Shown here: positions 466 through 38,392 of the stretch, one piece after another | How the letters are laid out: the number at the start of each line of letters is the position of its first letter | Position numbering within the stretch: position 1 is the stretch's first letter | Assembly (NCBI GenBank): GCA_035516255.1 | Contig: DATJAL010000047.1 | Location: 89,198 to 153,197 of the forward strand | Source of the DNA: Chitinivibrionales bacterium | GTDB taxonomy: Bacteria > Fibrobacterota > Chitinivibrionia > Chitinivibrionales > FEN-1185 | Length of the DNA: 64,000 nucleotides | Direction of reading: 5' to 3' | The notes under the pieces: generated by a model | What the model was told of the DNA's origin: nothing | What the model saw: the letters and a program-made list of their open reading frames with translations, nothing else | The model's database searches: none | Made by a program: the position numbers and the translations under genes

Positions 466-1605
466 TTATTTCACCAGCGCCTTGGCAACGGCTTTTGCAA
501 TCCTCGCAAGGTCGCTTTCGGCAAGGGCGGTGCCCGACGGCAGGCACAACCCGGTTGCAAAGAGCCTTTCGGAAATCCCGTTCGTAAACGACGGGCAGCG
601 CCTGAACACGGGCTGCAGGTGCATGGGCTTCCACAGCGGCCTGCTTTCGATGTTCTGTTTCTCGAGCGCGAGCCTGACATGGTTGGCGACGGCGGGCGAT
701 TTTTTTGGATCGATGGTGAGGCAGGTGAGCCACCGGTTGCTTGCGCCGTAGCCCGCCTCGGGCATGAACGACAAGCCGGGAAATGCCGACAGCGCATTGC
801 GGTAATAGTCGAAAATCTCCCGTTTCCGTTCTATTCTCTTTTGTAAAACAGTCAGCTGTCCCCTGCCGATCGCGGCGCAGATGCCGCTCATGCGGTAATT
901 GTACCCGATGCGCGAATGCTCGTAATGCGGGGCCCTGTCGCGCGCCTGGGTCGCGAAGAACCGCGCCCGCTCGACGAGCCTCTTGTCGCGCGACACGAGC
1001 ATGCCGCCGCCCGACGTGGTCACGATCTTGTTTCCGTTAAAGGAAAAAATTCCGATATGCCCCATGGTGCCCGTGCTTTTTCCCTTGTAGGTCGCGCCGA
1101 GCGATTCCGCCGCGTCCTCGATAAGCGCGACATCGTAGTGCCTGCATATTTTTATGATCGGGTCGAGGTCGGCGCTCTGGCCGTAAAGGTGCACCACGAC
1201 CGCCGCCTTGATCCTCTTGCCTTTTTTCCTCCTTGCTTTTATCGCGTGTTCAAGGAGCCGCGGGTCCATGTTCCAGGATTTCTCCTCGCAGTCGATGAAC
1301 ACCGGCGTCGCGCCCTGGTACACGATGGGAAACGCGCTTCCCGCAAACGTGAATGACGAACACGCCACCTCGTCGCCCGGGCCGATGTTTGAAAGCACCA
1401 TGGCCAGGTGCAGCGCGGCCGTGCCCGAGCTCACCGCCGCCGCGTGCCCGGCGCCGGTCGCCCCGCAGAATTCCCTTTCGAACGCGTCGACCTGCGGCCC
1501 GATGGGCGCGATCCAGCCGGAGGAGAAGGCGTCGTTGACGTACTTCAATTCCGTTCCGCTCATATGCGGTGGACTTAAGTAAATTCGCTTTGGTAAAGGT
1601 TTCAT
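466..1605 (-). CDS. pglE: PglE-type UDP-4-keto-sugar aminotransferase (DegT/DnrJ/EryC1/StrS family)
   Basis: This 379-aa protein is a PLP-dependent sugar aminotransferase. The Schiff-base lysine is K193 in FNGNKIVTTSGGG, the aspartate that contacts the pyridine nitrogen is D164 in IEDAAESLG, and SSGTAALH (59-66) is a phosphate-binding segment. The N-terminus (LSPPHMSGTELKY), the ATQAR and GYNYRMS stretches and the C-terminal ESRPLWKPMH and LPSGTA stretches match the Campylobacter PglE subfamily as I know it. PglE makes UDP-4-amino-4,6-dideoxy-GlcNAc, the step before N-acetylation to UDP-di-N-acetylbacillosamine. The neighbouring dehydratase, phosphoglycosyl transferase and GNAT acetyltransferase fit that pathway. 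The substrate itself is inferred. Confidence 0.88.
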   Translation of the reverse strand: MKPLPKRIYLSPPHMSGTELKYVNDAFSSGWIAPIGPQVDAFEREFCGATGAGHAAAVSSGTAALHLAMVLSNIGPGDEVACSSFTFAGSAFPIVYQGATPVFIDCEEKSWNMDPRLLEHAIKARRKKGKRIKAAVVVHLYGQSADLDPIIKICRHYDVALIEDAAESLGATYKGKSTGTMGHIGIFSFNGNKIVTTSGGGMLVSRDKRLVERARFFATQARDRAPHYEHSRIGYNYRMSGICAAIGRGQLTVLQKRIERKREIFDYYRNALSAFPGLSFMPEAGYGASNRWLTCLTIDPKKSPAVANHVRLALEKQNIESRPLWKPMHLQPVFRRCPSFTNGISERLFATGLCLPSGTALAESDLARIAKAVAKALVK

Positions 1606-2067
1606 GATGTTGATGGTAAATTAATTGATAAGAATATCTTTGTGGCTTTTTTTATCTCAAGTACTTCGGCATTTGCATGTTCTGCCGGGGGCGTCGCCCC
1701 CGAACCCCTACCTACTTTTCTTCTGCAGCGAAGAAAAGTAGGCAAAAGACGCCGCGCCCGCAGCGCCGCCTGATCCCTCGGCCGTCAGGCTGCTCGTGAA
1801 CTCGCCCGTAATAAAAACCATAAGATTAGCGGACTCAAACAGCACGAGCAGCTTCCTTCCGGCCTCAGGGGCAGCGCTGATGGCGAAAGAAAAAAACAGA
1901 ATCGGCAGCCATCCTTTAACCGGCGTTAGGCAGGACTAGAGGTCGCTCTGGAGAGCGATGCTGCCCGGCCCTCGCCAAAGGCATATAAGGGCCGTGGCAG
2001 CCCGAGCCGAAGGCGAGACCGGAAGGACGGCCGACCCCGCGTAGCGGGGAACGCCCATCTGTTTTTA
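1606..2067. other. Gene-free interval mostly occupied by structured repeat copy A
   Basis: These 462 bases between the pglE-like and pglC-like genes carry no credible coding sequence on either strand. About 70 bp of AT-rich spacer follows the pglE start codon side, and almost all the remainder is the structured repeat listed separately at 1676-2060. Confidence 0.8.
1676..2060 (+). repeat. Structured dispersed repeat, copy A (about 385 bp)
   Basis: This element aligns over most of its length with copy B at 3388-3858, in the same orientation. Shared parts include a GGGGGC hairpin at 1686-1702; a 13-bp stem with loop TGCAGC at 1711-1742; a GCCTGA/TCAGGC hairpin at 1768-1790; a long-range pair GCTGCTCGTG (1789-1798) with CACGAGCAGC (1843-1852); a GGCCCT/AGGGCC hairpin near 1970-1995; and a terminal CCCCGCG/CGGGG hairpin followed by GAACGC near 2035-2052. 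The conserved core around 1760-1860 is nearly identical in both copies. No open frame is shared by the copies. The orientation given is arbitrary, because it is not known which strand would be transcribed. Confidence 0.85.
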
Positions 2068-2700
2068 TTATTTATCAACTTCCACTAACCTCAACCACTT
2101 ATCCAGCGCAGGAACGACGGTAATCAAAATATATCCTATGTCCCTCCAGAAACTCCATTTTTCAAGGTACGCACTATTCAATGCCACCTTCTTCGGCCAT
2201 ATCACCGTGTCGTTGTAGTGCTTCGGATCGTCAACCGAGGCGAGGAGCTCCTCCTCGTTTTTGAAATACAGCGACGCCGGGCCGGTGATGCCGGGCCGCA
2301 GCTCAAGGACCCTGCGCGATGTTCCCTCGAGGCGGTCGGCGTACCCCGGCACGTCGGGCCGCGGCCCCACGAACGACATTTTCCCCACGAGCACGTTCCA
2401 CAATTGCGGATACTCGTCGAGCTTGGAGCGGCGCAGAAATTTTCCCGGCGGCGTGACGCGGGCGTCCCCTGCCGCCGTTATGGTGCCGCCCTTTTCCGCG
2501 CCGGTAACCATGGTGCGTATCTTGATGATATCAAAAGGTTCTCCAAGCCTTCCCACACGCTTCTGCCTGAAGAGCACCGGCCCCCTCGACGTCATCTTGA
2601 CGACAAGCGCAATGGCGCAAAACGGGACAAACAGCACGCAAAGCCCAAGCAGCGAGAAGACAAGGTCGAAGCAGCGCTTGAGGGGATTGTTCACGCTCAT
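2068..2700 (-). CDS. PglC-like small phosphoglycosyl transferase (initiating sugar transferase)
   Basis: This 210-aa protein transfers a phospho-sugar from a UDP-sugar to undecaprenyl phosphate, starting glycan assembly at the cytoplasmic face of the inner membrane. A hydrophobic re-entrant helix lies at residues 12-35. The catalytic Asp-Glu dyad is D95-E96 in SKLDEYPQLWNV, followed by MSFVGPRPD (108-116) and RPGITGPASLY. Its length is that of monotopic PglC-type enzymes, lacking the extra N-terminal membrane domain of WbaP/WcaJ. It overlaps the upstream GNAT gene by 4 bp (2697-2700), so the two are translationally coupled. The sugar is probably the bacillosamine-type product of the adjacent pglE and pglF-like genes, which is an inference. 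Confidence 0.9.
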   Translation of the reverse strand: MSVNNPLKRCFDLVFSLLGLCVLFVPFCAIALVVKMTSRGPVLFRQKRVGRLGEPFDIIKIRTMVTGAEKGGTITAAGDARVTPPGKFLRRSKLDEYPQLWNVLVGKMSFVGPRPDVPGYADRLEGTSRRVLELRPGITGPASLYFKNEEELLASVDDPKHYNDTVIWPKKVALNSAYLEKWSFWRDIGYILITVVPALDKWLRLVEVDK

Positions 2701-3338
2701 TGCGGTGCGCCCGAAAGGTGTTTTACATATTCGCTCATGACATTTTTATGATGCGTGAATGTTTTCTGTCGAGTAAATCCGCAAAACCGGTAAAATGCAT
2801 TGGCGTTGACATCCTGCGAAAACGTCACGGTCTTATATTCCGTCACTCCGGCGTGCATAAAATAACGTTCCATTTTCAAAACAAGCCGCTTGCCGATGCC
2901 CTGGCCCCGGTATTTTTCGTCAACCGCGATTGAAAGGAGCTCCGCGGAAATTGAATCGTCCTGTACCGCTTTGTCCCTATTGTCACCTGCATGAAAAGGA
3001 TACAGAAGCGTTTCCAGGATTTTCTTTACAACGGAAGGCCTGAATATATTGGGCAGCAGCAGCAATGCGAAAAGCCAGCCGCGGCGCAATACGATATGCC
3101 GGTACATCGCGCGGGTGTCAATGGCTGCTGAAATAAATCCCGCAGGATTTTTTTGTTCTGTATCATAGGCGACAAACACTTTTGAATAAGGCGATCTGTT
3201 GATGGAGTTGTATAATGCGGAAAGAAATGTTCGCCCCAGGTTTGAAATGAATCCTTTGGAAATACATTTCCTGTGCAATAAAGCGACGGCGGAAACCTGG
3301 GCCGGGGTGCATTGCTGAATGATAATTTTATTTTCCAT
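2697..3338 (-). CDS. GNAT-family N-acetyltransferase
   Basis: This is a 213-aa GNAT-fold acetyltransferase. The acetyl-CoA-binding motif VDEKYRGQGIGKRLV lies at residues 139-153, followed by the expected C-terminal FYRFCGF segment. I chose the ATG at 3338 over an upstream start at 3407, because the extension would run into the structured repeat and is not GNAT-like. Its stop overlaps the start of the phosphoglycosyl transferase gene. In Campylobacter the 4-amino group of the bacillosamine precursor is acetylated by PglD, a left-handed beta-helix enzyme. No PglD homologue is visible here, and this GNAT protein could do that step, as PseH does in pseudaminic acid synthesis. That role is inferred. 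Confidence 0.8.
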   Translation of the reverse strand: MENKIIIQQCTPAQVSAVALLHRKCISKGFISNLGRTFLSALYNSINRSPYSKVFVAYDTEQKNPAGFISAAIDTRAMYRHIVLRRGWLFALLLLPNIFRPSVVKKILETLLYPFHAGDNRDKAVQDDSISAELLSIAVDEKYRGQGIGKRLVLKMERYFMHAGVTEYKTVTFSQDVNANAFYRFCGFTRQKTFTHHKNVMSEYVKHLSGAPQ

Positions 3339-3869
3339 TTGTAACTTGGCCCATTTATGAACGCACATTATCTTACGCGGGGTTGCGCTAAGCGCCGGGG
3401 GCTCCACCCCCGAACCCCGGCCAAGGGTGCTCTGCAGCGAGCACCCTTGGAACCCACGCCGCGCCTCCAGCGCCGCCTGATCCTTCGGCCATCAGGCTGC
3501 TCGTGAACTCGCCCATAACAAAAACATAAGATTAGCGGACTCAAACAGCACGAGCAGCTTTTCTTCCGGCCTCAGGGTCGGCGCTGATGGCGGAAGAAAG
3601 AAACAAAACCGGCATAATTTCCTCTGTCCGGCGTTAGGCAGGACTGGAGCTTGGTCCCGACCAAAGGGAGGAAATAGACCCTCTGGAGAGCGATGCTGCC
3701 CGGCCCTCGCCGAAGGCATTATAAGGGCCGTGGCGGCCCGAGCCGAAGGACGACGACCCTTGTGACCCTTGGAAATCCCTGACGAGGGAGAAGCACCCGA
3801 AGGGGTGGACCGGAAGGACGGCCGACCCCGCGTAGCGGGGGAACGCGCGGATCTTTTTTATCTTTCCAA
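3339..3869. other. Gene-free interval holding structured repeat copy B
   Basis: The 531 bases between the GNAT gene and the GT4 gene contain no convincing gene. About 50 bp next to the GNAT start are unique sequence. The rest is structured repeat copy B. Open frames on the minus strand here (for example around 3492-3946) are rich in Pro, Ser, Arg and Gly, resemble no family I know, and arise from the GC-rich hairpins. Confidence 0.75.
3388..3858 (+). repeat. Structured dispersed repeat, copy B (about 470 bp)
   Basis: This is the longer of the two near-complete copies. Relative to copy A it has an extra stretch near 3765-3815 (including CCCTGACGAGGGAGAAGCAC) that also occurs in the partial copy near 38290. 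Its second hairpin (3421-3450) pairs CCAAGGGTGCTC with GAGCACCCTTGG around the loop TGCAGC. The corresponding stem in copy A has a different sequence but the same loop and pairing. The first hairpin is CGGGGG/CCCCCG (3396-3412), and the long-range pair is 3496-3505 with 3549-3558. Copies A and B are direct repeats bracketing the GNAT and pglC-like genes. Confidence 0.85.
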
Positions 3870-4994
3870 TCAAACAGCAATTTTAAGTACCCGTTTGTAA
3901 ATATCCACCCACAGATCAACAATCTTATTTTCATCAAAATGTTCACGTATGCGCTTGTGTCCTGCCTGCCCGTACTTTTCCCGGAGATTCTTGTCCAATG
4001 AGAGTTTCTTCAAGGCTTCGTTGAACGCATGCTGGTTACCATAGGGAACGAGAATGCCCGTTTCCCCGTTGACCACCAGCTCACTGGTGCCGACAACATC
4101 CGTGGCCACCACCGGCTTTTTGAGCGCCATTGCCTCCATGAGCCCGCGCGGGATGCCCTCCTTTTCCGACGCGAGCACCGCGACGTCGGCCTGCTTGACA
4201 AGCGCATGGATGAACGGCGTGTAGACGATCTTCACCGAGCGCTCGAGGTTCCGCACCGCGATGAGCCGCTCAAGGTCGGCGCGAAGCGCGCCCTTGCCCG
4301 CGATCACGCACTCGCTCGCCACCCCGGCCCTGTTGAGGAACTGCACCGCGTTGATGACCGTCTCGAGCCGCTTGACCGGCTCCAGCCGGGCAACGCAAAT
4401 GATTTTTGTTTTTCCCTGCGAGAACACCGGCCCGGCCGCGCCGCTTTGGGCCAGGGAGCTTTTTTCGATTTGGCCCGCGTCGACGCCGTTGCCCTCGAAG
4501 AACACCGGGCACCGTATCGACTTCATGCCTTTGAGCGCGTCAAAGTCGGTCCGGTTCTGCGACAGCACGGCCGACCGTATCCGGCACGCGCCGGTCTCCA
4601 GCACCTTGTAAAGGTTGTGCAGCGCCGTGCTCTGGCCATAAAAAAACGGGAGCCCGTGATAGGTGTGCACGCACGGCGTGCCGCAGAGCCGCGCGGCGAA
4701 CGCGCCCGCCATGCCGGCCTTGGCGGTGTGCGTGTGCACGATATCGTATCCGTTTTCTCTGATGACCGCCCTGAGCCTTATGACGGCCTCGATGTCCCGC
4801 CACGGCCGTATCGTGCGCGGTATGTCTATTGCGAAATGCCGCACCGCGGGAACTCGCGCCTCCTCCGGATCGGGCGACGAGGCAGCGTGGCACACGATAC
4901 CCTCACGGGTTGACAAAATGCGCAATTTGCCCGCGAGGATCGTGACGATGCTCTGAAAGGCGGTGGCCACGTGGAGGACTTTTATTTGTTTCAT
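3870..4994 (-). CDS. GT4-family glycosyltransferase (PglA-like)
   Basis: This 374-aa GT-B-fold glycosyltransferase has the family's C-terminal donor-site motif EX7E at E279 and E287 (SEKEGIPRGLMEAM), preceded by VARLEPVKRLE (201-211) where the nucleotide-sugar domain begins. The N-terminal domain has VHTHTAKAG (86-94) and HTYHGLPFF (110-118), typical of bacterial WaaG/PglA-type retaining enzymes. Such proteins add the second sugar to a lipid-linked sugar at the inner leaflet. Its place upstream of the GNAT, PglC-like, PglE and PglF-like genes mirrors the Campylobacter pgl cluster, in which PglA extends the bacillosamine-linked lipid. The acceptor and donor are inferred from that context only. 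Confidence 0.88.
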   Translation of the reverse strand: MKQIKVLHVATAFQSIVTILAGKLRILSTREGIVCHAASSPDPEEARVPAVRHFAIDIPRTIRPWRDIEAVIRLRAVIRENGYDIVHTHTAKAGMAGAFAARLCGTPCVHTYHGLPFFYGQSTALHNLYKVLETGACRIRSAVLSQNRTDFDALKGMKSIRCPVFFEGNGVDAGQIEKSSLAQSGAAGPVFSQGKTKIICVARLEPVKRLETVINAVQFLNRAGVASECVIAGKGALRADLERLIAVRNLERSVKIVYTPFIHALVKQADVAVLASEKEGIPRGLMEAMALKKPVVATDVVGTSELVVNGETGILVPYGNQHAFNEALKKLSLDKNLREKYGQAGHKRIREHFDENKIVDLWVDIYKRVLKIAV

Positions 4995-5015: not shown

Positions 5016-5172
5016 TGACATCTCGAGTTCGGCATTCGCTTCGACTGAATCGGTGGCGCCGCCCCCTCTCCTGTGGGAGAGGCAGCGTGGGGGTGAGGTC
5101 TGAACGACTAAAGCGATACTGCTATTTACCGTTTGATCTTTTACCCGCGAGGCGGGGGAACGCCCGGCTTTT
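5016..5172 (+). repeat. Shortened relative of the structured repeat plus a palindrome
   Basis: The start (ATCTCGAGTTCGGCATTCGC, about 5022-5041) resembles the sequence just left of copy A (ATCTCAAGTACTTCGGCATT, near 1650). The end has the same hairpin-plus-tail design as copies A and B: CCCGCGAGGCGGG then GGAACGCCCGG and a T-rich run. Between them is an unrelated palindrome, CCCTCTCCTGTGGGAGAGG (about 5063-5081). It looks like an internally deleted or composite copy. Confidence 0.5.
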
Positions 5173-5174
5173 TA

Positions 5175-7082
5175 TTATCTTATTAAAATTCTTTTTTGTA
5201 AAACCGCCTGCTCCCACACGATAAACATGAGCATCTGCCATAAAAACGACGAGTAGTCGCGCTTGCCGGCGATGTGCGCGGCGAAAAATTCCTCCACCGG
5301 AAGCCGCCACAGCCCGTACTGTTCGTAGCTGAACCCGGAATCGAACAGCCGCTCGGCAAGGTACTCCCTGAGCTCGCCCCTGAACCATTCGTCAAGCGGC
5401 ACGGAGAACCCGCGCTTGGGCTTGTCGATGATGAAGTCGGGAATCAGGCCGCGCGCGCTGTCCTTGAAGATCCGCTTGGTCCTGCCCGATATTTTCCACG
5501 GCGTGGGGAGCGAATTGGCAAACTCCACGAGCCGGTGGTCGAGGTACGGCACGCGCGCCTCCAGGCCGCAGGCCATTGACGCCTTGTCAAGCTTCTCCAG
5601 GTAGCAGTCGGCAAGCCACGTGCGCTGGTCGGCCACGAGCAGGCCGCGGCCGATGTCGCCCCTGCACGAATTGAAAATCTCCTCGTATTCGCTGTTGGCC
5701 GCCGCCGGCCCGCCCGTGAGCGCGCCGAAGTCCGCATCGCCGAGCGATTCGAGCCAGCGCGAATACCGCCTGATCTCGTCGCGCTCCGAAAACGCCTCCG
5801 CGATCTTCCGCAGGCGCCGCACCCGGGGCAGCAGCGGCGAGAGCGCCCCGACGCCCTTTACATACAGCGAAGACAGAAACGGGTGCTGGTGGTGCCACAG
5901 GTGCGCGCTGTAGCGGCGGTACCCGCCGAAGATCTCGTCGGCGCCCTCGCCCGAATGGCACACCGTCACGTACTGCCTGGCCAGCGTGCAGATGATGTAG
6001 GTGGGGAACGCCGCCGGGTCGGAAAACGGCTCGTCGTAATGCCACGCGAGCTTCTCGACCAGGTCGATAAGGTCTTTTGCCGTGGGCACGATTTCGTGGT
6101 GGATTGACCCGATCCGCTTGGCGATGTGCCGCGCCTCGTGCAGCTCCGAGTATTTCCCGCCCGCGGCCGCGTCGTGCGCGGGCGCGCCGGTGCCGAACCC
6201 CACCGAAAAGGTGTTCACCGCCGCGCCGTGGTTCTTCTGGATGAGCGAAACGAGCGCCGACGAGTCCACCCCGCCCGAAAGGAACGCGCCGAGCGGCACG
6301 TCGGAAATGAGCTGCATCCGCACCGCGTCGTTGATGAGCGCGGCGAGCTGCGATTTGCAGTCGTCGTAGGTCTTTCCCGTAAAGGCATGCCGGGTGTTCA
6401 ACGGGTCCCAGTAGCGCCGGGACGTTTCGGAGAAGTCCCCGCCCACCGCCACCCACGTTGCGGCAGGGACCTTGCGCACGTTGCCGAAAATGGTGTGCGG
6501 CGTCACCGAATGGCCGTAGGTGAAATAGTTTTGGAGCCCCCGGCCCGACAGCGACAGGTCGAAGCCGGCGGAAAAGAACGCCTTGCACTCGGAGGCCCAG
6601 CAGAACACGCGGTCGTCTTTGTAAACGTAGAGCGGCTTGATGCCCATGCGGTCGCGCGCCAGGTACAGGGTGCGCCCGCTTTTGTCCCACAGCGCGAAGG
6701 CGAACATGCCGTTGAGAACGTCGAGCACGGCGCCCAGGTCCCTGTTGCGGGGCAGCAGCGCCGCGCACAGCTCGAGCAGCGTCTCGGTGTCGGAGGTCCC
6801 CCTGAACGCAAAACTTGACAAATGCTCCTTCCTGATCTCCCGGTGGTTGTAGATCTCGCCGTTCAGGCACAGCACGTACCTGCCGCTTTGCGAGACCATG
6901 GGCTGGTGCCCGGCCGGCGACAGGTCGAGGATGGAGAGCCGGTTGTGCGCCATGTGGAAATTTTTGTCGGAAAAAACGCCCCGGTCGTCCGGACCGCGGT
7001 GCGCCATGGCGCCGCTCATGCGCAGCACGGCCTCCCGGTCGAAAAGGCCTTTTTTGTCGATGATGCCGAATATGGAGCACAT
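5175..7082 (-). CDS. asnB: AsnB-type glutamine amidotransferase / asparagine synthase-like enzyme (first of three)
   Basis: This 635-aa protein has an N-terminal class II glutaminase domain and a C-terminal ATP-pyrophosphatase synthetase domain. I start it at the ATG at 7082 because the second residue is then Cys, the obligatory N-terminal nucleophile (MCSIFGI); a longer frame starting at 7109 would bury it. The glutaminase motifs HRGPDD and CLNGEIYN and the PP-loop SGGVDSS (269-275) are intact. Classical AsnB makes asparagine from aspartate. Homologues inside polysaccharide loci, such as WbpS of Pseudomonas, amidate sugar carboxylates. Three copies in one locus favour the second role. It lies 7 bp beyond the end of the upstream membrane-protein gene. 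Confidence 0.9.
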   Translation of the reverse strand: MCSIFGIIDKKGLFDREAVLRMSGAMAHRGPDDRGVFSDKNFHMAHNRLSILDLSPAGHQPMVSQSGRYVLCLNGEIYNHREIRKEHLSSFAFRGTSDTETLLELCAALLPRNRDLGAVLDVLNGMFAFALWDKSGRTLYLARDRMGIKPLYVYKDDRVFCWASECKAFFSAGFDLSLSGRGLQNYFTYGHSVTPHTIFGNVRKVPAATWVAVGGDFSETSRRYWDPLNTRHAFTGKTYDDCKSQLAALINDAVRMQLISDVPLGAFLSGGVDSSALVSLIQKNHGAAVNTFSVGFGTGAPAHDAAAGGKYSELHEARHIAKRIGSIHHEIVPTAKDLIDLVEKLAWHYDEPFSDPAAFPTYIICTLARQYVTVCHSGEGADEIFGGYRRYSAHLWHHQHPFLSSLYVKGVGALSPLLPRVRRLRKIAEAFSERDEIRRYSRWLESLGDADFGALTGGPAAANSEYEEIFNSCRGDIGRGLLVADQRTWLADCYLEKLDKASMACGLEARVPYLDHRLVEFANSLPTPWKISGRTKRIFKDSARGLIPDFIIDKPKRGFSVPLDEWFRGELREYLAERLFDSGFSYEQYGLWRLPVEEFFAAHIAGKRDYSSFLWQMLMFIVWEQAVLQKRILIR

Positions 7083-38262: not shown

Positions 38263-38285
38263 TGAATTTTCTCTATGAATTGAAT

Positions 38286-38392
38286 AAAGGGCCCGGCGTT
38301 CCCCCGCTTCGCGGGGCCGGCCGTCCTTCCGGTCTCGCCTTCGGGTGCTTCTCCCTCGTCAGGGATTTCCAGGAGGGGCCACAAGGTCCGGT
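38286..38392 (-). repeat. Partial copy of the structured repeat, 3' end, inverted
   Basis: Read on the minus strand, this matches the end of copy B: AAATCCCTGACGAGGGAGAA, then CACCCGAAGG, CCGGAAGGACGGCCG, and the CCCCGCGAAGCGGGG hairpin with GGAACG. The rest of the element is absent. It lies between wecB and the GT2 gene, in the opposite orientation to copies A and B. Confidence 0.75.

Follow-up and report, generated by a model that had tools for sequence, protein, structure and literature searches.

The 64,000-nucleotide stretch of a Chitinivibrionales genome analysed here (the window) contains intergenic sequences that share a core and carry entirely different stems around one and the same loop. 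They raise the question of whether a fold is kept while its letters change and, if so, whether the folded strand is read as RNA or as DNA. The original prediction had proposed an undescribed structured element of either kind. The reading preferred here, at a probability of about 0.5, is a non-autonomous mobile element that is recognised as a folded single strand and whose inserted copies decay.

Copies A and B and their modules

What had been described as one repeat at 1676-3858 consists of two copies, A (1684-2055) and B (3394-3847), and two genes between them, coding for a sugar transferase (2068-2700) and a GNAT acetyltransferase (about 2697-3407). Both copies are intergenic, are oriented opposite to their flanking genes and lie in a surface-polysaccharide region (DegT aminotransferase, sugar transferase, GNAT acetyltransferase, glycosyltransferase, asparagine synthase). 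They are 84% identical across the element's first 221 bases. The 43 places that blastn finds for copy B in the window's own genome (G000), together with matches in relatives, show that each copy has two parts: a 5′ module, about 220 bases long, with all the features first described, and a 3′ module, structured in its own right, that is also found solo. The 5′ module comprises two hairpins, numbered 1 and 2, and a long irregular one (the core), and in many copies an A-rich linker joins hairpin 2 to the long hairpin. An asymmetric internal loop in the core, AACTC opposite TCRRACAG, is nearly invariant. All helices of the original description are found in A and B (Table 1): the perfect hairpin-2 stems around TGCAGC that differ between the copies, hairpin 1, and the remaining helices including the long-range pair GCTGCTCGTG/CACGAGCAGC, which is P3.

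Table 1. Positions in the window of the parts of copies A and B and of further fragments.
Feature	Positions	Strand	Details
Copy A hairpin 1 (CGGGGGC/GCCCCCG)	1684..1702	+	Same position in other copies
Copy A hairpin 2	1711..1742	+	Arms 1711-1723 and 1730-1742; loop TGCAGC 1724-1729; 13 bp, perfect
Copy A core long hairpin	1761..1886	+	Outer helix 1761-1770 to about 1870-1880, then P2, P3, P4; R1 match; covariation
Copy A mini-motif	1789..1852	+	P3 1789-1798/1843-1852 (long-range pair); loop AACTC 1799-1803, TCAAACAG 1835-1842; P4 inside; R2 E=3.1e-14; covariation
Copy A 3′ module (GCGTT ... AACGC terminal helix)	1923..2055	+	15/30 predicted pairs changed on both sides, 10 copies
Copy B hairpin 1	3394..3412	+	
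Copy B hairpin 2, class II stem	3421..3450	+	Arms 3421-3432 and 3439-3450; loop TGCAGC 3433-3438; 12 bp, perfect
Copy B core long hairpin	3468..3593	+	R1 match; covariation
Copy B mini-motif	3496..3558	+	P3 3496-3505/3549-3558 (long-range pair); loop AACTC 3506-3510, TCAAACAG 3541-3548; R2 E=6.5e-14
Copy B 3′ module	3631..3847	+	With insert of about 60 nt (about 3750-3809), missing in A
Further 3′ module fragment	38283..38386	-	87% identity to B, about 105 bases
3′-end fragment of a 3′ module	5144..5181	+	84% identity to B

In the window's genus the 3′ module (GCGTTAGG...GGAACGCC) usually follows a 5′ module, and it is often found alone or behind other repeats. Its ends are paired (GCGTT/AACGC, with compensation); no terminal inverted repeats are defined for the 5′ module. 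Most 3′ modules of G000, including that of copy B, have a near-identical insert about 60 nt long (ACGACGACCCTTGTGACCCTTGG...GGGGTGGA, 3750-3809 in the window), in place of which copy A has CGAGA. Since this insert is near-identical and missing from A, it seems to have spread recently.

Copies are often truncated, mosaic or nested. A nested mini-element (TGTCACTTCCGTTCC...TTTGCCCTG) lies within the 5′ arm of hairpin 2 at three loci (L043, L046, L143), at L143 additionally between P1 and P2, and related sequences are present at L107, L124 and L131. One locus of genome G021 (L166, 933-2786) is a mosaic array of about 1.85 kb, mostly non-coding, with CACACGCCCCC...GGGGGTCGTGTG units. A second structured intergenic repeat of like habit is found at three loci of G000 (L010, L023, L029) and at one of the sister genome (L300). 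Its layout is CCTGG-stem-CTTCC-stem-GGTGATC-stem′-CACACCCC. Some copies have GGTGCAG/CTGCACC as the outer stem; another has CCCCCGG/CCGGGGG.

Covariation and the reach of the fold

Among 28 distinct copies of hairpin 2, anchored solely on the CAGC of the loop with no search for hairpins, 76% of cells are Watson-Crick as against 43% after shuffling. The covariation score is 0.65, compared with 0.21 ± 0.02 in 300 shuffles (maximum 0.30) and at most 0.34 in slid registers. Twenty-two of the 43 pairs of the core are changed on both sides, with a score of 0.190 (shuffled 0.085 ± 0.008; slid at most 0.053). The mini-motif, aligned in 25 sequences from six genomes and several families, has changes on both sides in 15 of 16 pairs and a score of 0.625 (shuffled 0.185 ± 0.021; slid at most 0.199), and in the same alignment the unpaired AACTC and most of TCRRACAG are invariant. 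The pairs changed on both sides in ten copies of the 3′ module (Table 1) include the terminal helix, where GCGTT/AACGC becomes GCGCC/GGCGC. In these counts the A1 and A3 rows were chosen for their similarity, the sequences are related to each other, and cells stand for sequences, not events; the slid-register controls are the answer to the relatedness of rows. Two marks of a structured RNA are present: covariation that exceeds the controls, and unpaired bases that are conserved.

The replacement of a whole stem between A and B had been taken as evidence of a selected fold. By sequence, hairpin 2 of A and that of B belong to separate, discrete classes whose linkers differ as well, and the contrast between A and B alone might therefore be a module swap. 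The decisive evidence for a kept fold is compensation base by base within each class, and for each helix that was tested covariation lies far beyond both kinds of control, shuffled and slid. The two classes with their different linkers, like the nested inserts in the hairpin-2 arm of a few copies, would also suit unrelated palindromes inserted around a common core, or chance. This explanation is extremely improbable in view of site-by-site compensation within each class and of a hairpin 2 that is equally placed in relatives of other families and phyla. The original prediction had itself named two findings that would speak against it, further copies without covariation and unrelated palindromes around the core, and neither occurred: the collection of copies and the covariance models that it called for raised the evidence of covariation as copies were added, and the hairpin with the varied stem is equally placed in nearly every intact copy.

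Covariance model R1 (148 positions, 43 pairs, built from 21 copies) matches the core at 19 places in G000, at 24 in G001, a sister genome of the same genus (fen_1185), and, among 101 relatives searched, at 17 places in five more genomes from other genera or families of the same order (6, 5, 3, 2 and 1), counts that include a few weak or antisense-duplicate places. Model R2 is limited to P3, the internal loop and P4; at E <= 0.001 it finds the motif in six of 168 genomes of the phylum, all from a single order. Run on 31 diverse genomes and on 151 from the order to which Thermomonas belongs, it gives only weak, coding-like matches, and an exact 22-mer scan of genome contigs gives no match. The gapped pattern GCTCGTGAACT...CTCRRACAGC has 38 matches, of which only three, all in fen_1185, are convincing relatives. 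Nearly all the others look like chance matches in coding sequence, and an intergenic-looking match in a member of the Proteobacteria (L068) is unconvincing on inspection. Plasmid and phage searches with the window copies yield no match to the window modules; with gammaproteobacterial copies only the hairpin-2 stretch is matched.

A presumed likeness of the window element to proteobacterial repeats was the lead for searching 369 Gammaproteobacteria with the pattern AACTCGN{8,38}CTCRRACAG, the reversed pattern serving as control. Some genomes stand out, with pattern-to-control matches of 11:0 (G499), 9:1 (G427), 6:1 (G404) and 7:0 (G441); other genomes have chance matches in coding sequence. The gammaproteobacterial copies have the same anatomy, that is, hairpin 2 with a covarying pseudoknot, an A-rich linker and a long hairpin with an AACTC/TCRRACAG-type loop. 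In 20 distinct copies this anatomy is borne out by features that the search pattern does not include: P4 has 2.95 of 4 pairs against 1.70 ± 0.20 with swapped partners (0/1000), and the longest flanking helix is 8.3 against 4.8 ± 0.35 (0/1000). R2, trained on the window's phylum only, has six matches at E <= 3e-4 within 26 kb of gammaproteobacterial loci, two of them antisense to the listed copy. In G427 the core is present and no such hairpin 2 is found upstream. At two G427 loci (L250, L251) and on G499 contigs, two cores stand inverted and facing each other about 185-280 nt apart, resembling a REPIN pair.

Downstream of hairpin 2 the gammaproteobacterial copies have CCAAAAGAAA, and the loop of the hairpin pairs with the stretch after it (TGTCC/GGACA, TGCTC/GAGCA, TGGCC/GGCCA, GTGTCC/GGACAC). 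Pseudoknot pairs in the window's order are CCAGGGC/GCCCTGG, CTGGCCC/GGGCC and CGGCG/CGCCG. For 21 diverse copies, whose loops were tabulated by hand, the mean longest match is 4.5 against 3.2 ± 0.2 with loops swapped (0/2000). The candidate pseudoknot of copies A and B is only 3 bp, and the evidence for this helix comes from relatives. The hairpin-2 unit also occurs in records from Pseudoalteromonas, Aeromonas, Burkholderia, Pasteurella and Ilyobacter (Fusobacteriota), with distal domains that differ where they were read. It can be suggested, tentatively, that a superfamily of pseudoknotted modular elements extends across phyla (Fibrobacterota, Gamma- and Betaproteobacteria, Fusobacteriota) with a single-strand-based mobility enzyme of its own, unrelated to REP/RAYT, MITEs and integrons.

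Pairing could also be maintained by mutation with neither selection nor function, if one arm of a palindrome is rewritten from the other by template switching. Such a process would be expected to yield perfect new stems without an excess of G-U pairs, and the hairpin-2 stems are indeed long and near-perfect. However, it leaves unexplained the invariant unpaired loops, the separate covarying helix of the pseudoknot and the conservation of a multi-helix architecture between phyla, and it is quite improbable.

Orientation, vacant sites and the proposed recognition of a single strand

A structured RNA selected at each locus would tolerate G-U above A-C at its paired positions. No such preference is seen in the well-paired copies, where the ratio of G-U to A-C is 26:33 (89:91 overall); the genome's own tRNAs, treated in a similar manner, give 32:1 (Fisher p about 1e-7 versus the element). 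Because G-U and A-C are equally frequent, the copies are not maintained individually as RNA, and this narrows the proposed choice between an RNA and a DNA element. By heuristic gene calls, eight copies are co-directed with their flanking genes, 12 are opposed, five lie between convergent and two between divergent genes; the fixed orientation to a flanking gene that marks a cis-regulatory UTR is absent. Three of four orthologous sites checked are vacant in the sister genome. Between clpP and tig, the sole comparison with synteny on both sides, G000 has a 3′ module and G001 has none; the sites after rplS (5′ module) and ntrC (3′ module) are vacant in G001, where the downstream genes differ too. 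At the fourth site both sister genomes have a 3′-type module, so that either some copies are old or this site is a hot spot. Wobble parity, the occurrence of both gene orientations and the site differences between sister genomes together argue against an RNA that is kept up locus by locus.

A family of functional non-coding RNAs would consist of transcribed copies whose fold, with its pseudoknot and internal-loop motif, binds a protein or a ligand. Functional RNAs typically have pseudoknots and unpaired bases that do not vary, the fold is conserved between phyla, and single copies fold more stably than shuffled sequences (z -3.5 and -6.6). Such a family is nevertheless unlikely, as the G-U excess that is so marked in the genome's own tRNAs is missing, copies occur in both gene orientations, their distribution across genomes is patchy with vacant sites, and truncated or mosaic copies are numerous. 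The strand-neutral wobble ratio, the two orientations and the intergenic location of copies would fit a site in DNA, a cruciform or hairpin bound by a nucleoid protein, gyrase or recombinase and kept in place for chromosome function. That explanation is quite unlikely, since a pseudoknot and a strand-specific conserved loop misfit a symmetric double-strand cruciform and the distribution is patchy by the strict model.

The unpaired motif is specific to one strand, and only a single strand can form the pseudoknot; given that no G-U excess is found, ssDNA is somewhat favoured over RNA as the recognised form. In the preferred reading of a non-autonomous mobile element, an enzyme would recognise the single strand in its folded state, be it ssDNA or RNA, during copying or movement. 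The fold would be selected in the propagating lineages and inserted copies would decay free of selection, a decay that would leave no G-U excess. A working RNA in the active lineage would be served equally well by the internal loop, conserved as it is, and by the pseudoknot. Counted in favour of the mobile element are dispersed multicopy occurrence, covariation with conserved unpaired bases, the pseudoknot, an anatomy shared across phyla, strand-neutral wobbles, the lack of orientation bias, presence and absence at orthologous sites, and truncated, mosaic and nested copies. Counted against it are a 5′ module with ends not fixed to the base and no defined target-site duplication or terminal signature, the failure to find a linked transposase in G000, the 3′-type module shared at one of the four orthologous sites, and the fact that the clpP-tig case concerns a 3′ module.

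Comparison with known elements

The element proves undescribed in Rfam release 15, as predicted, for window copies and distant relatives alike. At the gathering score the window returns only a tRNA, positions 1600-3900 return a single chance miRNA match at E up to 10, and thirteen gammaproteobacterial loci return nothing above gathering. No description of the motif sequences or of such families turned up in the open-access papers searched; a subscription journal may carry one. A shape that survives wholesale stem replacement and reaches distant phyla, and that has a near-invariant internal loop together with a pseudoknot that covaries, is yet missing from the standard library of RNA families. 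In many genomes it is probably unannotated or masked by spurious hypothetical ORFs, and it raises the question of which enzyme or host factor reads the internal loop, as DNA or as RNA.

Integron attC sites and the end hairpins of IS200/IS605 are recognised as folded ssDNA, with stems that vary and unpaired bases that are conserved. The element shares the second trait, may share the first, and differs in size and architecture. Its 3′ module has GTTAGG with no matching RYYYAAC box seen, and identity with attC was considered and dropped. A hammerhead ribozyme (CTGATG...GAAA) was also dropped, no stem II being found.

REP, REPIN and BIME sequences are mobilised by RAYT (TnpA_REP) transposases, for which the folded single strand is the recognised form (PMC3116915, PMC6006769), and REPs measure 20-40 bp and carry GTAG/CGTC tags (PMC3733652). 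Like them, the element is dispersed, intergenic, hairpin-forming and mosaic. Unlike a REP palindrome of 20-40 bp, its 5′ module has about 220 bases with several helices, and a 3′ module, a pseudoknot and an internal-loop motif are added to it. G000 has two Y1 (RAYT-like) transposase genes (L101, L102), one of them flanked by a different REP of its own, CGACCTTCAGGTCGGG. The element is absent from the flanks of both, and RAYT was rejected as the mobiliser, neither transposase having a link to the element.

The stem-loop-containing repeat (SLS) families and small mobile sequences of the ERIC/RU type are dispersed folding repeats that are non-autonomous and MITE-like (PMC2267715, PMC2229807). The element is likewise a dispersed folding repeat, but these families are defined by sequence similarity within a genome, whereas its shape is conserved where its sequence is not; the words 'compensatory' and 'pseudoknot' are both absent from the text of the SLS paper. 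The beta-proteobacterial repeat element (BRE) of Bordetella is a GC-rich dispersed intergenic repeat with mobile features that overlaps partially with an sRNA (PMC3110155). At about 75-91 bp and often in tandem it is unlike the element, from which it is set apart by description and not by sequence. SLS, ERIC and BRE are not shown with an architecture of this kind, and the element is filed broadly with the dispersed folded repeats of bacteria.
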